From a virus, in IMG/VR virus record IMGVR_UViG_3300033143_001010, positions 1 through 43,163 of that record: a stretch of 43,163 nucleotides of DNA, one strand, 5' to 3'. Positions within the stretch are counted from its first letter, which is position 1. The number at the start of each line of letters is the position of its first letter. Of this stretch, positions 12,726 through 32,345 are shown in pieces. The translations under genes and the position numbers were made by a program. The notes under the pieces are model-generated. The model did not search any database and was not told where the DNA came from. It saw nothing but the letters and a program-made list of their open reading frames with translations.

Positions 12726-12830
12726 GGGCTAGTGGCAGAAGTGTTACCCTTTAAGTAGGGGTGCGTTGGTAATGTGAGTGCAATCTTCGTATTGCGAGCA
12801 GTGCGGGTTCGATTCCCGTCTAGTCCACCA
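12726..12830 (+). tRNA. tRNA-like gene, isotype unclear
   Basis: The 5' GGGCTAG (12726-12732) pairs with CTAGTCC (12820-12826), one G-U, followed by A and an encoded CCA. The T arm is canonical: GCGGG, loop TTCGATT, CCCGT (12803-12819). The rest is not standard: 105 nt is too long, and two hairpins compete for the anticodon arm. One, ACCCT-TTAAGTA-GGGGT (12746-12762), would give anticodon AAG (Leu) with an abnormally short D arm. The other, TGCAA-TCTTCGTA-TTGCG, has an 8-nt loop and leaves about 30 extra bases in the D region. Read as a tRNA with an insertion or a tRNA mimic. Confidence 0.55.
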
Positions 12831-30615: not shown

Positions 30616-30648
30616 ATGAGACTATTAATAGATGGAGATACTCCATGA
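30616..30648 (+). pseudogene. Displaced original start of the exonuclease gene
   Basis: A strong TTAGGAGG precedes ATG at 30616, which reads MRLLIDGDTP and stops at TGA. The TGA overlaps the ATG of the HNH gene. Removing 30645-31172 (528 bases, exactly 176 codons) joins this frame to the exonuclease frame as ...DGDTPIYRAAA. So this is the old 5' end of that gene, cut off by the HNH insertion. It may still be translated as a 10-residue leader coupled to the HNH gene. Confidence 0.7.
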
Positions 30649-31142
30649 ACTACTTAAAAGAAGCTACATGGTTAGATGGCAATAACTATATACGCCATGC
30701 TAATGATAAGTACTGGCACCGTTCTGTTGTAGAAGAGGTATTAGGTCGGCTATTAAAACCTACAGAAATAGTACACCATGTAGATGGTAATAGAAGTAAT
30801 AATACTAATAGTAATTTAGTTGTGTGTCCTAACCAGAGTTATCACAGGCAGCTACATGCTAGACAAAGAGTAGTAGATTTAGGAGGAAATCCACATGAGG
30901 ACAAATGGTGTAGTTACCATAAGTCTTTACATAAAATAGTAGAGTTTTCTACGAATCCATCAGAAGGTGATGGATATAATGGTTCGTGTAGAGCAGCAAC
31001 AAATGAGTACCGAAAAAATAAAGGGTTTAATCGGAGCAAATTTGATTGGCGTGCTAGATTACAACAGCAGTATCGTCGTATCTTAAAAGCCTATACGAAA
31101 CGTAATGTTTGTTGGTTAAACCCGAGGAGGGACAGTCTATGA
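30645..31142 (+). CDS. HNH homing endonuclease splitting the exonuclease gene
   Basis: 165 residues. The ATG (30645) overlaps the stop of the exonuclease fragment and uses its GGAG as ribosome binding site. HNH_3-type core: WHRSVVEEVLG, then EIVHHVDGNRSNNTNSNL and CPNQSYHRQLHARQ. A second, zinc-like part (KWCSYHKSLH ... GSCRAAT) and a basic C-terminus follow. Its stop overlaps the recoded exonuclease start as ATGA. The enzyme would be expected to cut intact exonuclease genes of related phages at the insertion point. Confidence 0.85.
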   Translation: MNYLKEATWLDGNNYIRHANDKYWHRSVVEEVLGRLLKPTEIVHHVDGNRSNNTNSNLVVCPNQSYHRQLHARQRVVDLGGNPHEDKWCSYHKSLHKIVEFSTNPSEGDGYNGSCRAATNEYRKNKGFNRSKFDWRARLQQQYRRILKAYTKRNVCWLNPRRDSL

Positions 31143-31947
31143 GGTTACTTATAGACGGGTAGGAGACACTCCTATCTACAGGGCTGCAGCAGCAGCTTCC
31201 CCTGCCCACTACATTGTAGAAGGTGTAGAGTTCAGGTATCATAAGGAAGCAGTAGCCTACTGTAAGGAGAACGACCTAGATAAAATATTAATTGATAAAG
31301 AAGTGAGGTTACAAGGAGCACATGCAGCTATTCATAACATCAAGCAGATCATGGGAGCCATCCTATCTGCTACAGGAATCAGAGATTACACCTGCTATGT
31401 TGCAGGTGATGGGAACTTTAGATATGACGTTAACCCTGAATATAAAGCGGGGCGGCCGCCGAAACCCTTCTACCACAACATTGTTAAAGAATATCTTATC
31501 GAACACGAAGGAGCAGAAGTAGTAGATGGAATGGAGGTGGATGATAAAGTGTCCATCGAGCAGTGGGAAGACATGACTAACACCATGATAGTCAGCGTTG
31601 ATAAGGACTTAGACATGGTTCCAGGTTATCATTTTAACTGGGTAAAAAATAAAAAATATTTTATAACAGAGGAACAAGGTGATGTTAACTTTTATACTCA
31701 GTTGCTTACTGGTGATAGGACTGATAACATACATGGACTTGTTGGTGTCGGACCAGCAGGCGCGGGCAAAATACTGGAAGGTGCGAGCGGAAGTAGCGAG
31801 CGCTATTCGAGATGCGTGGATGCTTATCAAGACCACGGCAGAGATGATCTGGAAAAAGTTGCTCGCCAAATTTGGATGAGTAAGGTAATACCTGATGACT
31901 GGCAACCGCCAGAGCTTATAGATATAACGGAGGATATACCACAGTGA
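31139..31947 (+). CDS. 5'-3' exonuclease (FEN/T5-T7 type), frame broken after 7 codons
   Basis: From the recoded start (GAGGAGG before ATG 31139) it reads MRLLIDG, then TAG. Five bases later the main frame continues as DTPIYRAAAAAS and runs to 31947. Main-frame features are GDGNFRYDVNPEYKAGRPPK, a metal-site region GMEVDDKVSIEQ, SVDKDLDMV and the helix-hairpin-helix LTGDRTDNIHGLVGVGP. No ATG, GTG or TTG lies in the main frame before a GTG at 31303, which would remove the essential N-terminal Asp. The protein removes primers and flaps. How the frame is repaired is open: ribosome hop, frameshift, sequence error or a true defect. Confidence 0.75.
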
Positions 31948-32345
31948 GGATACTTGACAAGTCTAAGGATGGTGGGCCAGCATCCCCTGTAGATGGATAC
32001 TTCTTGATAGAGATAAAGTTTTTATTCTCTATAGCTCTATTGAAGTTTAACAAGGGACGACGAGAGGAGTTCCACACCCACGCCTTCAATGCTCTCACAT
32101 GGTTTTTGTGGGGAGATCTTGTTGAAGAAGATATAGATGGTACCCTATATAGATACAGTACATCACTGATGCCTAAGCTAACTAAGAAAGCAAAGAACCA
32201 CAGGGTTAAAGCCCTTAAAGATAGCTGGTGTATTACAGTACGAGGTCCATGGGCAATGTTCTGGACAGAGGATAACCTAATAACTAATGAGACAACAGTA
32301 CTTACTAATGGTAGGCGCGTTGTTGCGAGGTATACTAATGATTAA
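31944..32345 (+). CDS. Cupin-like conserved phage protein
   Basis: 133 residues, GTG start overlapping the exonuclease stop, with GGAGG upstream. The EEFHTHAFNALTWFLWGDL segment looks like a cupin metal motif, followed by PKLTKKAKNHRVKALKDSWC and RGPW. A sugar or small-molecule binding role is possible. The function is unknown. Confidence 0.65.
   Translation: MRILDKSKDGGPASPVDGYFLIEIKFLFSIALLKFNKGRREEFHTHAFNALTWFLWGDLVEEDIDGTLYRYSTSLMPKLTKKAKNHRVKALKDSWCITVRGPWAMFWTEDNLITNETTVLTNGRRVVARYTND

Follow-up and report, generated by a model that had tools for sequence, protein, structure and literature searches.

To our knowledge, T4 gene 60 is the only well-documented natural case of programmed bypassing in a phage. 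According to a review, shorter matched-codon counterparts have long been presumed (PMC5009743), and the only systems mentioned in a 2024 paper are gene 60 and yeast mitochondria (PMC11194080). For gene 60, it has been proposed that a 5′ stem-loop propels ribosomes by refolding behind them (PMC5009743, PMC11194080), and a nascent-peptide signal is not known to be required for the bypass in yeast mitochondria. Here, we analyzed a stretch of viral DNA of 43,163 nucleotides (IMG/VR record IMGVR_UViG_3300033143_001010; hereafter, the window) in which an HNH gene splits a 5′-3′ exonuclease gene of the DNA-repair type, and we consider a homing cassette combined with a 5-nt ribosome hop across a UAG codon to be the best explanation for this arrangement, with a probability of roughly three in four. 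The features of the locus are the following:

30616 to 30648, plus strand: ancestral exonuclease start, reading MRLLIDGDTP and then TGA at 30646 to 30648 (sequence)
30645 to 31142, plus strand: HNH_3-type homing-endonuclease-like gene of 165 aa (Pfam HNH_3, PF13392, E = 1.8e-9)
31125 to 31131, plus strand: Shine-Dalgarno sequence AGGAGGG, within the 3′ end of the HNH gene (sequence)
31135 to 31156, plus strand: RNA hairpin with arms at 31135 to 31143 and 31148 to 31156 (folding, family comparison)
31139 to 31159, plus strand: first open frame, MRLLIDG, a recoded exonuclease N-terminus including the catalytic aspartate (sequence; alignment to Taq polymerase)
31157 to 31159, plus strand: putative take-off codon GGG, Gly (sequence, family comparison)
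31160 to 31164, plus strand: 5-nt gap UAGGA, whose UAG (31160 to 31162) overlaps the putative landing codon (sequence)
31162 to 31164, plus strand: putative landing codon GGA, Gly (sequence, family comparison)
31165 to 31947, plus strand: body of the 5′-3′ exonuclease (FEN/Pol I 5′-nuclease superfamily), from GAC 31165 to the stop codon at 31945 to 31947 (open frame, domain and profile matches)

The stop codon that ends the old start overlaps the start codon of the HNH gene as ATGA, and the stop codon of the HNH gene (TGA, 31140 to 31142) overlaps the second exonuclease start at 31139 in the same manner. A preliminary description of this DNA had proposed that the start at 30616 is interrupted by the HNH gene, that the start at 31139 encodes the same residues with other codons, and that GGG, TAG, and GGA are placed such that the frame resumes at GAC 31165. 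The sequence bears out each of these points, the two starts encoding identical residues despite differences at 6 of 21 bases. As for its list of features, the junction stands, but the hairpin and the AGGAGGG sequence had been overlooked. GGA and GGG can both be read by a single tRNA-Gly with the anticodon UCC, and the earliest usable start codon inside the exonuclease body is the GTG at 31303. The neighborhood is a replication module containing a DNA polymerase and a DnaB-like helicase. A cysteine-dioxygenase-like gene (31944 to 32345, phrog_4786) overlaps the end of the exonuclease gene and, at the DNA level, shares about 69% identity with Acinetobacter phages Ab5 and Ab7. Elsewhere in the window, we observed a glutamine-fructose-6-phosphate aminotransferase-like phage gene (19043 to 20734, phrog_4736) and a marginal 102-nt Rfam tRNA match (12726 to 12827; 29.4 bits versus a cut-off of 29) that was not called by ARAGORN.

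The junction is present in 15 distinct copies (the window, L004, L129, L014, L106, L108, L115, L162, L124, L151, L269, L284, L299, L342, and L074), and the carriers other than the window, of which there are at least 14, are uncultured phages. Their common pattern consists of an ATG, an in-phase frame of 7 to 12 codons ending in Asp-Xaa, a UAG, and resumption exactly 5 nt past the Xaa codon, where a second GGN or GCY codon, the putative landing site, is followed by Asp. The take-off codon is GGT, GCT, or TCC elsewhere in the family, and the take-off and landing pairs are GGT or GGG with GGN (n = 10), GCT with GCY (n = 3), and TCC with GCY (n = 2). Thus, both codons specify the same amino acid in 13 of the 15 copies, while the TCC and GCY pairs of L074 and L269 match at only two of three bases. 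UAG lies beside the take-off codon in all 15, including the four reached without a junction pattern (the window, L004, L014, and L074), the other 11 having come from patterns that fixed UAG and the spacing. The gap bases TA are invariant, and the ATGA overlap with the upstream gene is present in every copy. A Shine-Dalgarno sequence precedes the start in every member except L074, where there is only AAAGGATG (14 of 15), a count that must be read knowing that 11 members were recovered with patterns requiring GGAG or AGGAGGG. Given that 14 other distinct viral contigs carry the same junction, it is confirmed to be real sequence rather than the product of chance or of an assembly error, which settles a worry raised in the preliminary description.

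With regard to how these copies were found, L004 was recovered by a protein search with the HNH gene (HNH 53% identity, exonuclease 33 to 36% identical), and its junction reads MSKLLLVDG and UAG, with the gene resuming 5 nt further on. An HNH alignment then retrieved L014, with the same junction, and L013, which has a related HNH gene, an intact start, and no gap. The remaining copies came from DNA patterns built on the junctions of the window, L004, and L014, except for L074, which entered through a protein-based scan and was recognized by a hairpin-based scan of the collected loci. When the spacer bases were left free in the patterns, only TA was found among exonuclease loci, and when both codons were left free, only Gly/Gly, Ala/Ala, and Ser/Ala pairs appeared. 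A generic scan of the collected loci for a hairpin plus a stop codon gave no convincing case outside exonucleases, nucleotide and protein searches of annotated phages yielded intact relatives and no cultured gap-bearing phage among the matches inspected, and we found no earlier report of this family in the open-access literature.

The second conserved element is a hairpin whose 5′ arm covers the start codon and whose 3′ arm ends at the base immediately preceding the take-off codon. In the window, its folding energy is -11.8 kcal/mol (z = -4.4), a weaker version is seen in L124 (z = -1.5), and the hairpin of L004 is strong. In all 15 copies, a stretch running from -4 to about +5 relative to the start codon is paired with the bases just preceding the take-off codon. 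With the register fixed at eight pairs, 7 to 8 pairs (mean 7.77) form in the 13 members tested, compared with a mean of 4.7 and a maximum of 6 in 54 distinct gap-free starts, and 0 of 500 shuffles reached the covariation score or the paired fraction, although the member sequences are related and neither the pair counts nor the shuffle counts can be read as probabilities. Two stem columns are altered on both sides (G-C/A-U in one and U-A/C-G/A-U in the other), and sliding the register of the pairing partner abolishes pairing. Because MAFFT misaligned the variable loops, we counted stems after trimming the loops and anchoring the sequences at the ATG and at the gap. In L013, which has the HNH gene without the gap, the hairpin is absent (5 of 8 pairs by hand count); thus, on this single comparison, the hairpin appears to be linked to the gap rather than to the HNH gene. 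A hairpin over the start codon could also have a role in the control of initiation.

The exonuclease itself indicates how the two frames must be joined. That of the window matches the N and C models of 5_3_exonuc below the Pfam gathering cut-offs, and although a PDB search with one exonuclease sequence gave no match, the family profile did match the 5′-nuclease domain of Taq polymerase as well as the T5 and T4 enzymes. The conserved acidic active-site residues of the FEN/Pol I 5′-nuclease superfamily are present. Both aspartates of an Asp-x-Asp motif are invariant in 12 aligned exonucleases, some of them aligned after closing the gap in the way predicted for the hop, and the first aligns with the aspartate in the LLVDG of Taq polymerase. 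The preliminary description had suggested comparing exonuclease starts in relatives with and without the HNH gene, and in this comparison the Asp-x-Asp spacing is kept in 83 of 83 gap-free relatives scored (x being Gly in 41, Ala in 36, and other residues in 6), and L013 has the HNH gene and no gap. Downstream of the gap, dN/dS values for three pairs were 0.26, 0.09, and 0.23, and, judging from these ratios, the post-gap frame is under purifying selection. At the sequence level, the frames on either side of the gap together make up a conserved exonuclease, and its Asp-x-Asp motif is rebuilt by a +5 step only. Apparently, then, this exonuclease can be made only by ribosomes that jump five bases across the stop codon.

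Nevertheless, shifts of -1 and +2 at the take-off codon would both enter the exonuclease frame, and a slow UAG with an adjacent hairpin would be expected to stimulate either of them. The imperfect TCC and GCY landing pair also counts toward such programmed frameshifting, which would leave two (-1) or one (+2) extra residues between the aspartates. In the window, the predicted N-termini are MRLLIDGDTPIYR for the hop, MRLLIDGVGDTP for the -1 shift, and MRLLIDGGDTP for the +2 shift. We nonetheless find frameshifting less likely than the hop, and indeed unlikely overall, as -1 re-pairing would place tRNA-Gly, tRNA-Ala, or tRNA-Ser on CGG/UGG, CGC, or CUC, respectively, with no first-base pairing, and the products of frameshifting (Asp-x-Leu/Val-x-Asp, or Asp-x-x-Asp for +2) would depart from the Asp-x-Asp kept by the 83 relatives. 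Moreover, frameshifting would leave the match between the take-off codon and the downstream codon, as seen in L108, without a reason.

We give much less credence to the possibility that the exonuclease body is made from an internal or non-canonical start, with MRLLIDG serving only as a leader peptide. Some members do have an ATG, GTG, or TTG at most 3 codons from the resume codon, but such starts vary from 1 to 84 codons downstream, and no start codon in the exonuclease frame, upstream or downstream, is conserved in position. A protein started internally would lack the aspartate that aligns to Taq polymerase, and the first frame is, in all members, in phase and composed of hydrophobic residues plus Asp-Xaa, which speaks against a mere leader.

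The genes found upstream of the junction are diverse. They are of the HNH_3 type in the window, L004, L014, and L115, with a degraded version in L129, and of the Endonuclease VII type in L124 and L284 (Pfam-tested, Endonuclease_7) and, according to the same visible motif, in L106, L162, L269, L299, L342, and L074, while that of L108 is HNH-like by eye and has no Pfam match. We thus count at least two, and probably three, unrelated HNH-type genes. In L151, where others have Endonuclease VII, there is only a 23-codon open-frame remnant, MKAAMKYLISHTENGTLKEGSGL (L151:560-640), the nuclease having been lost and the bypass junction kept, and empty relatives also exist. Copies with the gap are dispersed among intact ones in the exonuclease tree, a pattern that requires 8 changes, at least 3 of them forced by well-supported branches, in a tree whose bootstrap is incompletely settled. 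L108 groups with exonucleases that have Asp-Ala-Asp, and yet both its take-off and its landing codon are GGN; therefore, the matched codon pair probably travelled with the cassette. We also observed a gap-free sister arrangement, L013:943-2198, in which a related HNH gene directly precedes an intact, recoded exonuclease start. In L345:1723-2956, from the cultured Pseudomonas phage vB_PseuGesM_254, an Endonuclease VII gene lies just upstream of an intact exonuclease (VTKEVIVAVIDADVIGY), which makes this phage a possible laboratory counterpart without the gap.

We consider it highly improbable that splicing or processing takes the HNH segment, or the 5 nt, out of the RNA. The frame of the window would be restored if 30616-30644 were joined to 31173 onward, but, as anticipated in the preliminary description, excising 30645-31172 leaves no room for an intron core, the HNH frame occupying nearly all of the 528 nt. 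No group I or group II intron or other Rfam family was found at the site, an Rfam search of the window having returned only the weak tRNA-like match elsewhere and no self-splicing catalytic core at this position. The old start is lost in L151 and damaged in L108 and L106, which leaves no 5′ exon, and the loss in L151 argues strongly against splicing, under which the conserved covarying hairpin and the UAG junction would also lack a role. Finally, an assembly error or a decaying pseudogene would account for the broken reading frame of the contig but is practically negligible as an explanation for 15 distinct contigs that look alike, with dN/dS values of 0.09 to 0.26 and intact catalytic acids.

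The homing-gene-plus-bypass reading put forward in the preliminary description is thus supported by the conserved junction, the hairpin, the selection on the exonuclease, and the scattered distribution, from which we infer the hop itself. We propose that a homing-endonuclease cassette would have invaded the Asp-x-Asp codons of a phage 5′-3′ exonuclease gene, whose old start would have been repurposed to serve the HNH gene, while the 3′ end of the cassette would have brought a new Shine-Dalgarno sequence, a start codon, the recoded MRLLIDG, and the UAG. Translational coupling at the HNH stop codon may bring ribosomes to the exonuclease start, and the ATGA present in every copy fits with this. 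After seven codons, the ribosome would stall, GGG being occupied by peptidyl-tRNA-Gly and the A site by UAG, and the hairpin, one of whose arms would be leaving the ribosome while the other lies close to the E site, could refold, pulling the mRNA and moving the ribosome forward 5 nt, a role that we propose by analogy with gene 60. The tRNA would then re-pair on GGA, and resumption at GAC would give MRLLIDGDTPIYR, with the active site intact. The gap and the recoding probably also destroy the endonuclease target, thus protecting the occupied allele. With somewhat less confidence than in the hop itself, we favor the broader view that these loci form a widespread mobile family of minimal bypass modules (a hairpin at the start codon, a stop, and a codon matched 5 nt further on), in which no nascent-peptide signal is needed for a hop in the first dozen codons and which different homing nucleases have picked up for target-site protection.

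If true, this would provide a second family of phage bypasses with many natural variants, and it would separate what a hop needs (the stop codon, the matched codon, and the hairpin) from the extras of gene 60 (the nascent peptide and the long gap). The size of the element, around 60 nt, makes it testable in one reporter. It would also support the idea that bypassing arises where homing genes invade the active-site codons of important genes.

Among known systems, T4 gene 60 with mobA resembles the exonuclease family in that a phage gene of the replication type is split by an HNH homing gene, UAG comes directly after a Gly take-off codon, the landing codon matches, and a 5′ stem-loop is located behind the take-off codon (PMC5009743, PMC3014915, PMC11194080). 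However, the gap is 50 nt in gene 60 and 5 nt in the exonuclease family, whose hairpin extends over the start codon, whose gap has no stem-loop, and of which at least 15 copies exist, with several HNH types involved. The long nascent-peptide signal of gene 60 is also absent, only 7 to 12 residues preceding the gap. The byp elements of Magnusiomyces yeast mitochondria are similarly natural short inserts skipped by ribosomes, with imperfect take-off and landing pairs tolerated, but they are organellar, occur in many genes, and have been described as largely independent of mRNA context (PMC5009743), whereas the exonuclease family concerns a single phage gene and has a stop codon and a 5′ hairpin that is conserved. 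In the synthetic E. coli stop hops and +5 hops of Weiss et al. (1987), as summarized in a review, peptidyl-tRNA also crosses a stop codon to a matched codon a few nucleotides away, but in laboratory constructs rather than in natural conserved genes (PMC5009743). Free-standing HNH or Endonuclease VII homing genes resemble the family in that, in L013 and L345, the nuclease directly precedes an intact exonuclease of the same kind, but with no gap ordinary translation suffices there, and L013 also lacks the hairpin. On these sequence-level comparisons, the exonuclease-junction family looks like a second natural family of the T4-type ribosome hop.
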